This document shows, piece after piece, positions 3,195-11,459 of a stretch of 33,541 nt of DNA. Position 1 is the first letter of the stretch. Every line of letters starts with the position of its first letter. The notes beneath the pieces are model-generated. The model searched no databases and was not told the origin of the DNA. It was given only the letters and a program-made list of their open reading frames with translations. The translations under genes were made by a program, and so were the position numbers. The DNA comes from Methanosarcinales archaeon (GTDB taxonomy: Archaea; Halobacteriota; Methanosarcinia; Methanosarcinales; Methanocomedenaceae): assembly GCA_021108405.1 (NCBI GenBank), contig JAIOQW010000028.1:1-33541 (forward strand). Direction: 5' to 3'.

Positions 3195-4688
3195 ATGTCA
3201 AATTCATATACTGGTACAGAGGCTCTGGTGCTGGGTGCTCTTGACTCTAAAATAACTTTTGCCACAGGTGTTCCGGGTTATCCTATCACTAAAATTATGG
3301 AACAACTGATGGACTCAGCAATTGAATCCCGTTGGTCTGTTAACGAAAAAGTTGCCCTTGAGGCAGCCCTTGGCGCTTCTACTGTTGGACGCAGGGCAGT
3401 TGTAATTATCAAACACGTGGGCATGAACATCCTGGCCGACCCACTTATCACTTCAGCTACACATACTATCGGAGCCGGGGTGGTAATTATTGCCGGAGAT
3501 GACCCCGGAGTCAAAATGAGCCAGAACGAACAGGATTCACGCTATTTTGGCCTGCTGGCAGAAGTACCGGTATTTGACCCTGATACGCCAGATGCAGCAT
3601 ATGAATGTATGCGCAACGGTTTTGCATTATCTGAAAAAGTAAGTACACCTGTAATCATCCGAATAACAGATAGATTGAACACATCAAATTCGGATGTTAA
3701 AAGGACAGTGTCAAGTTCAACAGACTTCCCGGTATTTAACCGTAGTATCTGGTCTTATAGCTTAAAGGGCAAACACCAGCGTTTTCATTTGCAGTCATAT
3801 CCGCTCATGCTGGAATTATCTGCCACATATAAGATGAATATTCTTCATAAGAGGGAGAGTAATATCGGTGTTATCTCATCAGGATATATCTCCACTCTGG
3901 TAGAGAAGGTCATATCCGATAGGTTTCGGGATGTCTCTCACCTATCACTTACGATGATAAACCCGCTGCCAGTTGGCCTTATTAGTAGTTTTATCAAACA
4001 GCACTCAAAGGTGTTGATCATAGAGGAGACCGAACCTGTTATCGAACAACAGGTTTCGTGTAGTGGAGTACTGGGAAAACATACCGGTCACGTAGGATAT
4101 GGAAAAGTAGAGATCAGTGATATTATCCGGGCACTGGAACATATCGACAAGGAGAAAACCAATTACATGCAAAGCCCGGAGACATTGACCAGCCGCGGGT
4201 ATTCAAGAGGTACATGTGAGGACTGTCCATATAATGTTCTATATAATGAGCTTAAGAAACTTTCAGTGCCTATAGCCGGAGACCTGGGATGTTCGATAAG
4301 GACTGCACCACCGCCCATGGAAATCGCAGATACGGCATATTCGCTGGGCTCATCCATAGCTACCGCGACAGGCTTTGATAATAAAGGTGTGGCCCTTATA
4401 GGTGATTTCGGACTGGTCCATACCGGACTGCAGGGTCTTATAGAAGCAGTATTTCACAAGAAGGATGTGCTGGTGATAGTATTGCTAAATAGCATATCTG
4501 CCCTTACCGGCGGACAACAAGTACCTGATATCACCTGTTTGGTACAGTGTCTCGTACCCGGGACTATAATACTTGATATGGAAAAAATCAATAAAGATGA
4601 ACTGTTTATGATCCTCTTAAGCGAACTTGATAAGAAGGGAGTATCAGTAATTCTTGCTCGTGGGCAGTGTACAAAACATAATCCATAA
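3195..4688 (+). CDS. IorA-like TPP enzyme lacking the ferredoxin domain
   Basis: A 497-residue relative of the alpha subunit of indolepyruvate:ferredoxin oxidoreductase. The N-terminal pyrimidine-binding domain has NEKVALE (Glu51, the likely cofactor-activating glutamate), KHVGMN and SQNEQDSRYF. A middle domain follows, then the thiamine-diphosphate domain with GDFG at 403-406 and NS at 432-433, a divergent form of the usual GDG...NN. True IorA continues for about 100 residues with two [4Fe-4S] ferredoxin motifs. This protein ends cleanly at ILARGQCTKHNP, where that part would begin. No iorB is nearby. The neighbours are aksA and aksD. It may be a separate 2-oxoacid decarboxylase or a divergent oxidoreductase subunit. 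The family is sure and the substrate unknown. Confidence 0.8.
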   Translation: MSNSYTGTEALVLGALDSKITFATGVPGYPITKIMEQLMDSAIESRWSVNEKVALEAALGASTVGRRAVVIIKHVGMNILADPLITSATHTIGAGVVIIAGDDPGVKMSQNEQDSRYFGLLAEVPVFDPDTPDAAYECMRNGFALSEKVSTPVIIRITDRLNTSNSDVKRTVSSSTDFPVFNRSIWSYSLKGKHQRFHLQSYPLMLELSATYKMNILHKRESNIGVISSGYISTLVEKVISDRFRDVSHLSLTMINPLPVGLISSFIKQHSKVLIIEETEPVIEQQVSCSGVLGKHTGHVGYGKVEISDIIRALEHIDKEKTNYMQSPETLTSRGYSRGTCEDCPYNVLYNELKKLSVPIAGDLGCSIRTAPPPMEIADTAYSLGSSIATATGFDNKGVALIGDFGLVHTGLQGLIEAVFHKKDVLVIVLLNSISALTGGQQVPDITCLVQCLVPGTIILDMEKINKDELFMILLSELDKKGVSVILARGQCTKHNP

Positions 4689-4696
4689 TCTTTTCA

Positions 4697-4860
4697 TAGT
4701 ATATCAAGTATAACTTGAATCGAAAATACTTCGTATTTTCTAATTTTCAACTCCTTCTGAGTTTCAGTATCGAAAATGCTCACTCAGTTCACATTTTCTA
4801 ATCTTCAGTTCCTTTGGATCTTCAGTCAAGAAAATCCGAGCGCTAGCGAGGATTTTGTTC
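4697..4860 (-). repeat. tandem hairpin repeat cluster overlapping the aksA stop
   Basis: Read on the minus strand, this stretch holds three successive imperfect units. Each has a hairpin of the form AAAAT...ATTTT (AAAATCCTCGCTAGCGCTCGGATTTT, AAAATGTG...GCATTTT, AAAATACGAAGTATTTT) followed by a purine-rich spacer such as ACTGAAGATCCAAAGG or ACTGAAACTCAGAAGG. It ends in CGATTCAAGTTATACTTGATATA. The first unit begins inside aksA and supplies its last five codons and stop. Related copies are at 15452-15507 (same terminal sequence) and, more weakly, 7842-7866. Confidence 0.6.
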
Positions 4861-6018
4861 TTTTTTTATGATCTCTTGAACGAAGTCTTCCAGTACATTA
4901 CAGGGTATGCCGCGTTTAGCCTGGTAACAGTCTTTTACCTTATCCAGCAGTTTGCACAATTGGTCATGGTCCAGGTCATGTCCCATGGTCTGCACAACTC
5001 CTTTCAATGCCTTGGTACCTGTATGTTTACCTATGATCAGGCTGCGTTTTGCTCCTACCATTTCAGGGGAAAATAACTCATAGGTACTGGGTTCTTCCAA
5101 AATAGCAGCAACGTGGATTCCACTCTCATGGGCGAATGCCAATTCCCCGACTATGGGTTTATTCTTTGCTACATTTACACCCGCGTATTCCACCACCATT
5201 TTTGATAGCTTCATCAGACCTGAAGTATTGTACTTATCAATATCATATAGAACCAGTAGTGACATTAACAGTTCTTCCAGTGAAGCATTACCTGATCTTT
5301 CACCTAAACTATTAACAGTTGTATGCAACTGTTTTGCTCCTGCCTCTGCCGCTGCAATAGTATTGGCAGTAGCCATACCCAGATCATTGTGGCAGTGAAT
5401 GCCGATATCTGTCTTGATCTCTTTTTTAATTTCACTGACAAGATAATAAGTGGTACTTGGATTTAGTATCCCGACCGTATCAGCTATACTTACATAATCG
5501 GCATGTCTCGCTTCAGCTTCTTTATATATACGCTTTAGTGTGTTAATGTCTGTACGCGTTGCGTCTTCTGCAGCAAACCGTACAATTAACCCGTGGTCTT
5601 TGGCATACTCCAGGGCATCATAGGCACACTGTGTTGCCTCTGCGCATGTTTTATGATATTTATATTTCAGGTGAATATCAGAAGTTGCAATAAAAATACT
5701 GACCATATCCACATCACAATCAATAGCAGCATCTACATCAGGTATTATCGAGCGAGCTAAACAACATATCTGGGCATTAAGGCCCATATGAGCAACTTCA
5801 CGAACTGCAATGCGTTCAGCCCTGGAAACTACAGGAAACCCGGCCTCTATCACTTCGATACCAGTCTTATCAAGTTCCGCTGCTATATTTTTTTTCTCTT
5901 CCAGAGTAAAAGCTGTCCCTGGTGTCTGTTCTCCGTCCCTTAGTGTAACATCACATATTTCGATGTTCGTAGGCTTCAGTCCAACGAGATCGACTAGTTT
6001 ATTCCTGGAGTACTGCAT
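4843..6018 (-). CDS. aksA: homocitrate synthase family protein, AksA type
   Basis: A 391-residue DRE-TIM metallolyase. The barrel shows TLRDGEQTPG near residue 26, the metal-binding HCHNDLGMATAN near 204, and GERSGNASLEE near 238. It lacks the ~120-residue regulatory domain of leucine-type isopropylmalate synthase, as expected for AksA/NifV-type homocitrate synthases. In methanogens AksA condenses 2-oxoglutarate with acetyl-CoA and then lengthens the chain for coenzyme B. The divergent aksD 126 bases away supports that role. NifV-like homocitrate supply to nitrogenase is an alternative. The start follows AGGTGAT at good spacing. The final codons (EQNPR) come from an intergenic repeat. Confidence 0.85.
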   Translation of the reverse strand: MQYSRNKLVDLVGLKPTNIEICDVTLRDGEQTPGTAFTLEEKKNIAAELDKTGIEVIEAGFPVVSRAERIAVREVAHMGLNAQICCLARSIIPDVDAAIDCDVDMVSIFIATSDIHLKYKYHKTCAEATQCAYDALEYAKDHGLIVRFAAEDATRTDINTLKRIYKEAEARHADYVSIADTVGILNPSTTYYLVSEIKKEIKTDIGIHCHNDLGMATANTIAAAEAGAKQLHTTVNSLGERSGNASLEELLMSLLVLYDIDKYNTSGLMKLSKMVVEYAGVNVAKNKPIVGELAFAHESGIHVAAILEEPSTYELFSPEMVGAKRSLIIGKHTGTKALKGVVQTMGHDLDHDQLCKLLDKVKDCYQAKRGIPCNVLEDFVQEIIKKEQNPR

Positions 6019-7919: not shown

Positions 7920-10900
7920 ATGAAAAAATGTAATCGATTTTTAGTCTTACTACTGATAATATTATTATGCATAACATCTGTAAGTACAGGACTCCCATCT
8001 ATCAGCGAACCGGAAGATCAGGTGATTGAACTGGGTGCTGCCGGGGAAATAATATGGACAATAACAGATGAGAATCCTAATAATTACTGGGTATTAACAA
8101 ATACTAGCCAGATAGTTGTACCATCGCCCTATGAAAGTGGCGAAGATATCATAGTCCCGATAGATACTTCTATAACAGGTATCCGGGATTATGTTATATT
8201 TGCAAGTGATGCTACAATGAATGTAACAAGTGACCTGGTGGAAGTTACCGTCCGCGATACATCCGCACCTGTAATAACCAACCCGCCTGATCAGATTATT
8301 GTAAAGGGAACCGAAGAGAATATTATATGGGCCATAACAGAATTTGAACCTGGTATATACTGGATAGAAAAAGACGGAGAAGAAATTGTATCTCCACAAA
8401 GCTATGAGGATGAGTTATGGATTTATGCAGAGATAGATACATCTACAGTAGGTACATTGTGCTATACTATTTTTGCCACTGATTTATCAGGAAATGAAGC
8501 AAGTGATGAAGTGGAGATTTCAATCCATGATCCGACCATACCTATTATAACCACTCCCTTTGACCAGGTCATTGAGATAGATAGTGAAAGTTATATTCAG
8601 TGGACTATAACAGAACCTGACCCTGGTATGTACTGGGTGCTTAAAGACGATGAGGAATTCGTATCTTCTCAAAGTTATTATGATGGTGAGGAAATAACTG
8701 TCCTGATAGATTCATCTATAGCAGGTACGTGGAGCTATACTATTTTTGCCACTGATGAATCAGGAAATGAAGCAAGCGATGAAGCGGAGGTTGTAATCAA
8801 TGAAGCACCATCACCACCTATACTGACAACTCCTCCTGACCAGTTTATTTATCAGGGAGATACAGGGACTATTGTGTGGACAATCACCGAATCAGACCCT
8901 AATATGTACTGGGTATATAAGGACGGTGAAGAGGTTGTATCTCCACAAAGTTATTATGATGGTGAAGAGATCACTGTTCAGATAGATAGTTCTATTGCAG
9001 GTAGACAGACCTATTCTATATTTGCCAGTGATACATCAGGTGATGAAGCAAGCGATGAGGTGGATGTTACTGTTACAATTACTTTCAGTGATGATATCGC
9101 ACCTGTAATAACCCACCCTCCTGATGTGACTATTGATCAAGGGGATGAGGGGGATAGTATTGTATGGACAATCACCGAATTAAATCCTGATATGTGCCGG
9201 GTTTATAAAAACGGTGAAGAGTTCATATCTCCACGAGAATATTACGATGGTGAGGAGATCACTGTCTCGATAGATACTTCAGCGACAGGTACACAGATTT
9301 ATTCCTTATTTGCCACTGATACATCAGGAAACGAAGCCAGTGACCAGGTGGAAGTTATTATCAGCGATACAGATGATCCTGTAATAACACATCCTCCTGA
9401 TGTGACTATTGATCAATTGGGTGAGGGGGGGAGTATTGTATGGATAATCACCGAACCAAACCCTGATAGGTACTGGGTACATAAAAACGGTGAAGAGTTC
9501 ATATCTCCCGAAGGGTATTACGATGGTGATGAAATAACTGTCTTGATAGATACTTCAGCAACAGGTACACAGACTTATTCCTTATTTGCCACTGATACAT
9601 CAGGAAATGAAGCCAGTGACCAGGTGGAAGTTATTATCAGCGATGTGAACGGACCTGTAATAACCACCCCTACTAATGTGACTATTGATCAATGGGATGA
9701 GGGGGGGAGTATTGTATGGACAATAACAGAACCAAACCCTGATAGGTACTGGGTACATAAAGACGGTGAGGAGTTTATTTCTCCCGGGGGGTATTCCGAT
9801 GGTGATGAAATAACTGTCTCGATAGATACTTCAGCAACAGGTACACAGACATATTCCTTGTTTGCCAGTGATACATCAGGAAATGAAGCCAGTGGCCAGG
9901 TGGGAGTTATTATCAGCGATGCAGATGAACCCGTAATAACCACTCCTCCTGATGTGACTATTGATCAGGGGGATGAGAAAAGTATTGTATGGACAATCAC
10001 CGAATCAAACCCTGATAGGTACTGGGTATTAAATAACAAAGAAGAAGTTGTATCTCCACAAGATTATCATGATGGTATGAATATCACTATCCGGATAAAT
10101 ACTTCTTTAGCAGGTATACAGAATTATTCCTTATATGCCAGTGATAAGTCAGGAAACGAAGCCATCGACCAGGTAAAAGTTATTATCACCGATACAGTTG
10201 CGCCTATAATACATTCAATACCTCTTAAAAAAATAAAAATAGGTACTACAGGCAATATTACCTGGATCATTAATGAAACAAATCCGGGGAAGTACTGGAT
10301 ATTGAATAACAGTGGTGAAATTAAACCCCCGGAAAGTTATTATAACGGTTGTAATATTAATGTCACACTAGAACCTACAGAGTTAGGCACGTTGAGTTAT
10401 ACTTTATTTGCAAATGATACTTCCGGTAATACTGCCAGTAACCAGATGAATATTACTGTTCAGAATACAACCCCACTCACCATTACTTATCCTCGCGATC
10501 GTGATTCAACGACTTTATTTTCCATATATATCAATGGGACAGCGGAAGGAATACGTTCAATACCAGTAGTGGAAATAACAGCAAATGAAAAAACTGAAAC
10601 TGCAAAACTTGAGTTAGGTGATGATAATTTTGTATCATTCTCACATAAGATCCCGTTATCTATCGGAACTAACACTATAACAGTTACTGCAGATTATGGA
10701 AATGATGAACCCGATTCTTTGACATTAAAGATAATAAGAAAAAAAGAATATAATAATAAACAAACAGGTGGAGGCAGTGGTGGCGGCTCGACGAGTGAAG
10801 ATTTACAAAATATATTGCTTAAAGAGATCCAGCGAGAATTTGTTGCCAAGGATGAACGGGTATGCTACCATTTTGTTTCAGAAGGCAATATAATCAGCAT

Positions 10901-11459
10901 GATCAACTTCACCGGTATGAGAACTTCAGGGATAATACCTGCAAAAGTAGAGATACTTAATCATACTTCTTCATTAGTGAACTATGCTCCACTGGATCTG
11001 GTATACAAGAACCTCAATATCTGGGTTGGCAACCTTGGCTGGGCAAGCTCACAAAATATTGCTAATGCTACTATCAGTTTTAAAATTGAAAAATTATGGG
11101 TTACCCAGAACAATATTGATAAGTCTTCTATTGGATTGAATCGATATGAAGATGGTGAATGGAATATGCTTGTAACTTCATTAATCGGTCAAGATACTCA
11201 ATATTTCTATTTCAAATCCGAGACACCGGGTTTTTCTAATTTTGTAGTAACAGGAAAGCAGGAATATATTGGCGATCCTGGTAGTGAAGGAATTGATAAT
11301 AAACCACAAGATGATATCAATGAAAACCCAAATGATATTTCAGATTCTATAAATACTACTACTGAAGAAGATACAGGGATTCCAGGTTTTAATGTAATTG
11401 CTAATTTATTTATTCTATTGATTGTAGTACAATTATTGAGAAAAAAAGAGGATAAATAG
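7920..11459 (+). CDS. repeat-rich surface protein with PGF-CTERM tail
   Basis: A 1179-residue exported protein. Residues 1-24 form a signal peptide with a long hydrophobic core. Residues 26-849 hold nine tandem Ig-like beta-sandwich repeats of about 92 residues, each with a WTITE...YWV core and ending IFATDTSGNEASD-VEV-I. Residues 850-945 look like another beta-sandwich. A Gly/Ser linker (GGGSGGGS) follows, then a PGF-pre-PGF-type domain near 965-1120 (FTGMRTSGIIPAKVEILNH). The tail is IPGF, a hydrophobic stretch and RKKEDK, the PGF-CTERM pattern processed by an archaeosortase that replaces it with a lipid anchor. Many NxS/T sites suggest glycosylation. A role in the cell wall or adhesion is likely. 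No archaeosortase is in the window. Confidence 0.88.
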   Translation: MKKCNRFLVLLLIILLCITSVSTGLPSISEPEDQVIELGAAGEIIWTITDENPNNYWVLTNTSQIVVPSPYESGEDIIVPIDTSITGIRDYVIFASDATMNVTSDLVEVTVRDTSAPVITNPPDQIIVKGTEENIIWAITEFEPGIYWIEKDGEEIVSPQSYEDELWIYAEIDTSTVGTLCYTIFATDLSGNEASDEVEISIHDPTIPIITTPFDQVIEIDSESYIQWTITEPDPGMYWVLKDDEEFVSSQSYYDGEEITVLIDSSIAGTWSYTIFATDESGNEASDEAEVVINEAPSPPILTTPPDQFIYQGDTGTIVWTITESDPNMYWVYKDGEEVVSPQSYYDGEEITVQIDSSIAGRQTYSIFASDTSGDEASDEVDVTVTITFSDDIAPVITHPPDVTIDQGDEGDSIVWTITELNPDMCRVYKNGEEFISPREYYDGEEITVSIDTSATGTQIYSLFATDTSGNEASDQVEVIISDTDDPVITHPPDVTIDQLGEGGSIVWIITEPNPDRYWVHKNGEEFISPEGYYDGDEITVLIDTSATGTQTYSLFATDTSGNEASDQVEVIISDVNGPVITTPTNVTIDQWDEGGSIVWTITEPNPDRYWVHKDGEEFISPGGYSDGDEITVSIDTSATGTQTYSLFASDTSGNEASGQVGVIISDADEPVITTPPDVTIDQGDEKSIVWTITESNPDRYWVLNNKEEVVSPQDYHDGMNITIRINTSLAGIQNYSLYASDKSGNEAIDQVKVIITDTVAPIIHSIPLKKIKIGTTGNITWIINETNPGKYWILNNSGEIKPPESYYNGCNINVTLEPTELGTLSYTLFANDTSGNTASNQMNITVQNTTPLTITYPRDRDSTTLFSIYINGTAEGIRSIPVVEITANEKTETAKLELGDDNFVSFSHKIPLSIGTNTITVTADYGNDEPDSLTLKIIRKKEYNNKQTGGGSGGGSTSEDLQNILLKEIQREFVAKDERVCYHFVSEGNIISMINFTGMRTSGIIPAKVEILNHTSSLVNYAPLDLVYKNLNIWVGNLGWASSQNIANATISFKIEKLWVTQNNIDKSSIGLNRYEDGEWNMLVTSLIGQDTQYFYFKSETPGFSNFVVTGKQEYIGDPGSEGIDNKPQDDINENPNDISDSINTTTEEDTGIPGFNVIANLFILLIVVQLLRKKEDK
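7995..10466 (+). repeat. nine tandem ~275-bp coding repeats
   Basis: Nine in-frame units of about 92 codons make up the body of the surface-protein gene. Units 5 to 8 are the most alike at the DNA level. For example, units 6 and 7 share long runs around CCAAACCCTGATAGGTACTGG and GATACTTCAGCAACAGGTAC. Units 1, 2 and 9 are the most diverged. This is the pattern expected of recent expansion in the middle of the array by unequal recombination. Confidence 0.85.

Follow-up and report, generated by a model that had tools for sequence, protein, structure and literature searches.

What reaction would be catalyzed by a protein that resembles IorA, ends where the ferredoxin domain of IorA should begin, and is encoded beside genes for coenzyme B synthesis? 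The question is raised by the gene at the center of this study, which lies in a window of 33,541 nucleotides (the whole stretch of DNA analysed) from a Methanosarcinales archaeon. We use the name SF for the clade of short IorA-like proteins to which its 497-aa product belongs. Methyl-coenzyme M reductase, the enzyme that forms or consumes biological methane, depends on coenzyme B, and Methanomicrobium mobile cannot grow unless coenzyme B is supplied (Kuhner 1991, cited in PMC10658910). In 2023, the enzymes for 2-oxosuberate, 7-oxoheptanoate and the later coenzyme B intermediates were still given as unknown (PMC10384328), and an earlier survey of the Methanothermobacter genome listed two unknown coenzyme B proteins (Kaster 2011, PMC3087415). 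In the openly accessible literature searched, we found no paper that assigned SF or DUF7714, a protein family discussed below, to this pathway. Our analysis indicates that SF is probably a ThDP-dependent non-oxidative 2-oxosuberate decarboxylase of coenzyme B synthesis, and it appears to be the best candidate so far for the enzyme of the pathway that has no identified gene. A preliminary description of this locus had also proposed a decarboxylase. That conclusion is supported by the checks on iorB and on the neighbourhood, while the arguments from missing clusters and from domain loss needed repair.

Both ThDP domains of IorA were recognized in the protein (two Pfam TPP matches), no Fer4 match was found by Pfam, and the protein stops after the PP domain. 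The TIGR03336 IOR_alpha model matched residues 6-449 with 322.5 bits, below its equivalog cutoff of 650.9; because the model length is 595, such a match leaves out the ferredoxin part, as the preliminary description had stated. The same genome has a complete iorA-iorB pair on contig C33, and its full-length IorA (L002) is 607 aa long with Fer4 matches at 547-604. SF is a paralogue of different build, not the only IorA of its genome. SF shares with IorA (TIGR03336), the alpha subunit of the amino-acid-degrading indolepyruvate:ferredoxin oxidoreductase, both ThDP domains and the cysteine pattern of the proximal cluster, at 33-37% identity, and the middle domain is common to IorA and full-size SF. 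However, SF has neither the C-terminal two-cluster ferredoxin domain nor IorB, scores about half of the family cutoff and falls in a separate clade. The features of the IorA/OFOR superfamily found in SF are the two ThDP domains, the conserved Glu, GD..N and the cysteines of the proximal cluster. The coordinates are collected in Table 1.

Table 1. Positions of the candidate gene, its domains and residues, and the associated genes discussed in the text
Feature	Position	Strand	Basis or remark
SF, short IorA-like ThDP enzyme, 497 aa, candidate 2-oxosuberate decarboxylase	3195..4688	+	intact ORF
N-terminal ThDP (PYR) domain, residues ~5-165	3207..3689	+	Pfam, alignment
Glu51, candidate catalytic glutamate	codon 3345-3347	+	E in 54/54 SF and 20/20 IorA rows
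Middle domain, residues ~213-320	3831..4154	+	missing from Methanomicrobiales-like short forms
C-terminal ThDP (PP) domain, residues ~335-497	4197..4685	+	Pfam, alignment
ThDP/Mg motif, GD 403-404 and N432	in PP domain	+	alignment
C341 and C344 (CEDC), probable proximal [4Fe-4S] ligands	4215..4226	+	alignments
C366 (GDLGC), probable third ligand	4290..4292	+	alignments
C492 (RGQC), probable fourth ligand	4668..4670	+	alignments
aksA-like gene, homocitrate synthase family, 391 aa, HMGL-like and HCS_D2	4843..6018	-	clusters with AksA of aks operons
aksD-like gene, homoaconitase large subunit, 411 aa	6145..7380	+	HacA_Meth 540.7 bits (cutoff 550)
DUF7714 gene, contig C9 of the window genome	L279:4897-5766		adjoins aksE/aksF
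DUF7714 genes elsewhere	L213:5441-6247, L173:15666-16529, also L281, L284, L285		adjoin aksE and/or aksF

In the alignment, Glu51, Lys73, Asp103, Gly403 and Asp404 were present in all 54 SF candidates and Asn432 in 53 of them, which is consistent with a functional ThDP enzyme. The catalytic role of Glu51 is presumed here from general knowledge of ThDP enzymes. The main difference in the TPP motif is the third residue, SF having GD[FY]..N and ordinary IorA GDS..N. The divergent motif had been taken as a sign of a changed reaction, but IorA itself has GDS and not GDG, so the motif is not unusually divergent and this is weak evidence. The ~480-560 aa form of SF was found in 38 of 40 related genomes, and the two genomes without it were 80% and 56% complete. 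The loss of a domain and of the partner subunit might suggest that SF is a decayed paralogue of IorA that no longer catalyzes anything; against such invariance of the candidate catalytic Glu and of GD, and such retention of the gene among relatives, we give this explanation almost no credence.

In the tree of the 54 SF candidates and 20 IorA, 52 candidates formed one clade (support 100/99). L179 and L180, which had initially been counted as SF, were outside it and grouped with a Desulfobacterales protein. These two proteins (family f29, archaeal) and the Desulfobacterales L093 are IorA-like and lack the ferredoxin domain and an adjacent IorB, as SF does, but they form a separate tree group with other neighbours, and no aks genes were seen there. 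In f29, the neighbouring genes resembled those of an iron alcohol dehydrogenase and of a radical SAM protein. The SF clade ranges over Methanosarcinales, including ANME-2 and Methanoperedens, Methanotrichaceae and Methanocellales-like families, and was also found in a genome with a divergent, probably alkane-type Mcr (G237) and in a halophile-like genome (G156). The taxon labels of these genome families (f1, f2 and so on) were inferred from gene content.

With a lower search threshold, a short form of ~390-445 aa was detected in six Methanomicrobiales-like families (f8, f16, f19, f24, f25, f26), and it was found in six further Methanomicrobiales-like genomes. It matched SF positions 2-212 and ~320-489 only, and because the match skips the positions in between, the short form is without the middle domain. 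SF and the short form made up one clade with support of 100/100, remote from ComDE; L177, L178 and the short forms were the most divergent rows of the tree, where internal support was moderate only. Neither form was found in the Mcr-positive genomes of ANME-1-like (f10), f12, f15, f20, f27 and Archaeoglobi-like (f9) families. Within the phylum of the window genome, to which this search was confined, SF was not found in every coenzyme B-dependent genome, and the idea that it is universal among Mcr-bearing archaea was rejected. Since these Mcr-positive families gave no SF match, organisms making coenzyme B can do without SF, and another enzyme must carry out the step there.

The preliminary description had noted that no iorB lies beside the gene, and this holds well beyond the window. 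In tblastn searches with the IorB of the window genome as query, none of the 54 SF loci had an IorB, but 62 of the 67 loci that carry another IorA did; in the window genome, the complete iorA-iorB pair lies only elsewhere. No IorB match was obtained in the whole genomes of G018, G021, G022, G026, G033, G156 and G280, all of which have SF; this absence is subject to the completeness of the assemblies, which is ~80% for G022 and G026. G017, G020, G025, G029 and G037 gave weak matches only, probably to other gamma subunits. Because seven SF genomes gave no match, SF must work without IorB there, and that SF borrows an iorB of the genome in trans is unlikely. The missing ferredoxin domain is another matter. 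Seven bacterial IorA of ~530-570 aa without this domain (L079, L091, L097, L117, L129, L136, L140) keep IorB nearby, so loss of the domain alone does not end oxidoreductase function, and we rejected it as a mark of a non-oxidative enzyme, for which it had been taken at first. These seven loci offer a ready comparison for IorAB with a single cluster.

It had further been argued that, without the clusters, SF could not pass electrons to ferredoxin in the usual way. This does not follow, as SF keeps the four cysteines of one OFOR-type proximal [4Fe-4S] cluster. C341, C344, C366 and C492 were invariant in 14 aligned relatives; of the 54 SF candidates, 53 had all four, as did 19 of the 20 IorA (one IorA was without C341) and also the short forms. 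The order CxxC...GC...C occurs in PorB of solved OFORs as well and fits the ligand pattern of the proximal [4Fe-4S] cluster of OFOR beta subunits. When the C-terminal half of SF was aligned by profile with a PorB (91.8% probability), C341, C492 and approximately C344 lined up, and C366 was out of register. SF should, judging from these residues, still hold one proximal [4Fe-4S] cluster. Two-subunit OFORs (Sulfolobus type) and PorB share this cluster pattern of the PP domain with SF, but in the OFORs a gamma/CoA-binding domain is present and the reaction is oxidative. In the halophile-like SF of L178, all four cysteines were lost together (P/N/S/gap), yet the protein ends a tight aks operon, which suggests that the four cysteines are one unit and dispensable for the aks-linked role in that lineage. 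Because one lineage lost the ligands and kept the operon, the retained site probably has a structural or regulatory role, and its retention in nearly all SF candidates hints at some redox or structural role.

Could SF still be an oxidoreductase, which would use the single proximal cluster to oxidise 2-oxosuberate or another 2-oxoacid, with free ferredoxin or some other partner as the electron acceptor? Two-subunit, single-cluster OFORs exist, the fold of SF is related to that of OFOR, and the conserved ligands, also in the short forms, and the bacterial IorA that occur with IorB but without the ferredoxin domain would fit such an enzyme. We nevertheless consider it unlikely, since the gamma/IorB partner is absent nearby and in several genomes is not detectable anywhere, the middle domain is gone from the short forms, and the L178 protein, with none of the four cysteines, is found in the tightest aks operon.

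The position beside aksA and aksD, pointed out in the preliminary description, turned out to be conserved in many families and in independent arrangements. In the family of the window, SF and aksA are convergent, and aksD lies on the far side of aksA. The window genome carries aksE (YLRT), DUF7714 and aksF together on contig C9 and the gene for methanogenesis marker protein 11 (mmp11, TIGR03280) on C3; the whole known chain is present in this genome, though split. In the six Methanomicrobiales-like families, the genes are arranged on one strand, mostly overlapping, in the order mmp11, radical SAM, short SF, aksA, aksD, aksE, DUF7714 and aksF; at L211, L212 and L214, at least one frame of the operon was missed by crude ORF picking, and the matches and flanking order agree. 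L178 (contig C71 of G156) has aksA-aksD-aksE-aksF-SF with overlaps of 4 to 8 bp. SF is linked to aksA and aksD in f1, f7 and f14, and in the last two also to aksF: in f7 and f14 (f14 probably Methanocellales), SF, aksA, aksD and mostly aksE are followed by aksF and DUF7714 together. aksA adjoins SF in an f3 genome and in the Methanosarcina-like L163 and is linked to it in some f4 genomes, and no aks genes were adjacent to SF in f2, f5, f32 and most f4 and f6 genomes. The linkage of SF with aks genes is strongly conserved and recurs in independent lineages and arrangements.

Details of the aks genes bear on whether they serve coenzyme B and not leucine or lysine synthesis: the AksA-like proteins are short and have the HCS_D2 domain, and AksE of the SF-linked clusters has a YLRT or YLRS loop, compared with YLVI in a paralogue of G018 that is probably LeuD. 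We take YLRT to be the mark that separates methanogen homoaconitase from isopropylmalate isomerase. In the genome of Methanohalophilus mahii, aksE and aksF are two locus tags apart (PMC3017947), which is compatible with one gene in between, as observed here. Two other observations were made around these genes. In G237 (L218:6139-9327), the genes beside an AksA-like gene encode a full-length IorA, an IorB and a set like PorA/PorB, and homologues of aksD, aksE and aksF lie ~10 kb from it. Downstream of aksD in the window (7920-11459), a probably secreted protein of 1179 aa is encoded, with about eight repeated domains that start 'ITxPPDQxI'-like.

The domain make-up, the clade, the lack of IorB, the aks linkage and the probable ThDP and one-cluster residues were obtained directly; from them we infer which reaction SF would catalyze, on which substrate and to which product. 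SF would descend from an IorA-like ancestor. The chain-elongation cycle of AksA, AksD-AksE and AksF would deliver its end product, 2-oxosuberate, as the substrate of SF, which would convert it into CO2 and 7-oxoheptanoate; this aldehyde would later become 7-mercaptoheptanoate for coenzyme B. SF would act alone, with neither the CoA-binding gamma subunit (IorB) nor a ferredoxin domain. We favor this reading because a ThDP enzyme is encoded with a pathway whose next step removes CO2 from a 2-oxoacid, because both the domain that carries electrons and the partner that binds CoA were lost, and because the short forms are reduced to a PYR-plus-PP core. The stronger arguments are the absent gamma subunit, the middle domain lost in the short forms, the cysteines lost in the halophile-like SF and the aks operons.

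From the common ancestry with indolepyruvate oxidoreductase, one could suspect that SF decarboxylates aromatic or branched-chain 2-oxoacids and is close to aks genes only by chance. The independent aks linkage in many families and the retention of SF in some genomes without a detectable IorAB pair make it very improbable. Another alternative is a decarboxylase whose substrate is a shorter product of the cycle, or one whose 7-oxoheptanoate serves pimelate and biotin and not coenzyme B; chemically, pimelic semialdehyde is one oxidation away from pimelate. It is the L178 operon that brings this up. Its genome, G156, is ~98% complete, with acidic halophile-like proteins and the aksA-D-E-F-SF operon, and neither mcrA nor mmp11 was found in it. 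For that reason the product of the operon is not obviously coenzyme B, and it may have a different use in this lineage. For SF as a whole we find such a role quite unlikely, given that mcrA is present in nearly all other SF genomes checked and that mmp11 is linked to SF in most loci of Methanosarcinaceae, Methanotrichaceae, Methanoperedens and the Methanomicrobiales-like families.

The AlphaFold model of SF (pLDDT 89.7, pTM 0.89) was used for a Foldseek search, in which acetolactate synthases and ThDP decarboxylases were best by E-value and OFOR alpha subunits had higher TM-scores. The low TM-scores to the former reflect, in the model, a different domain placement, so the result supports membership in the ThDP superfamily only. 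A sequence search of the PDB with SF gave weak matches to OFOR alpha only. The proposed chemistry would parallel the decarboxylation of sulfopyruvate by ComDE in the coenzyme M pathway: hypothetically, both would decarboxylate an acidic 2-oxoacid by non-oxidative ThDP catalysis to an aldehyde that is later made a thiol, and the short form of SF has the same PYR + PP size. However, ComDE is very distant in the tree and is without IorA signatures. That SF is ComDE itself was rejected: ComDE is a separate gene of a remote clade, found in 7 of 10 SF genomes tested and, in the window genome, on contig C31. In coenzyme M synthesis, MMP16 is the coenzyme M synthase, with parallel chemistry in which a thiol replaces the aldehyde (PMC12068725).

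The companion genes may point to the steps after 2-oxosuberate decarboxylation. mmp11 directly precedes SF in Methanosarcinaceae, in Methanoperedens and in most loci of Methanotrichaceae. Many loci (L161, L163, L154-L159, L151-L153, L165, L166, L210-L215) have it immediately or a short distance upstream of SF, often with a 4-bp overlap, and this arrangement suggests that mmp11 takes part in making coenzyme B. The radical SAM protein encoded between mmp11 and the short form in Methanomicrobiales-like operons (L213:10218-11183, L210, L211, L215) has weak LipS2 similarity, a CxxxCxxC motif and a C-terminal CxxCxxC; in the Methanocellales-like genomes (L174, L175), a radical SAM gene adjoins mmp11. 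The gene for DUF7714 (PF24830) adjoins aksE, aksF or both in genomes of ANME-2 and Methanoperedens and in Methanothrix-like, Methanocellales-like and Methanomicrobiales-like genomes. Its product carries several conserved cysteines and shows weak similarity to XcbA, a family that acts in coenzyme M synthesis in bacteria. We regard it as a candidate enzyme for forming the thiol of coenzyme B. Tentatively, and with more doubt than confidence, the operon from mmp11 to aksF could be read as an almost complete chain-making system for coenzyme B, in which SF would form 7-oxoheptanoate, DUF7714 and/or the radical SAM protein would add the thiol, and mmp11 would take part in a later step. If this is true, several missing steps of coenzyme B synthesis would be assigned at once.

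With a candidate enzyme and a conserved operon, the old gap in the coenzyme B pathway after 2-oxosuberate becomes directly testable, and DUF7714, the radical SAM protein and methanogenesis marker protein 11 are indicated as companions for the remaining steps. SF itself would be an example of a redox 2-oxoacid oxidoreductase pared down to a plain decarboxylase.
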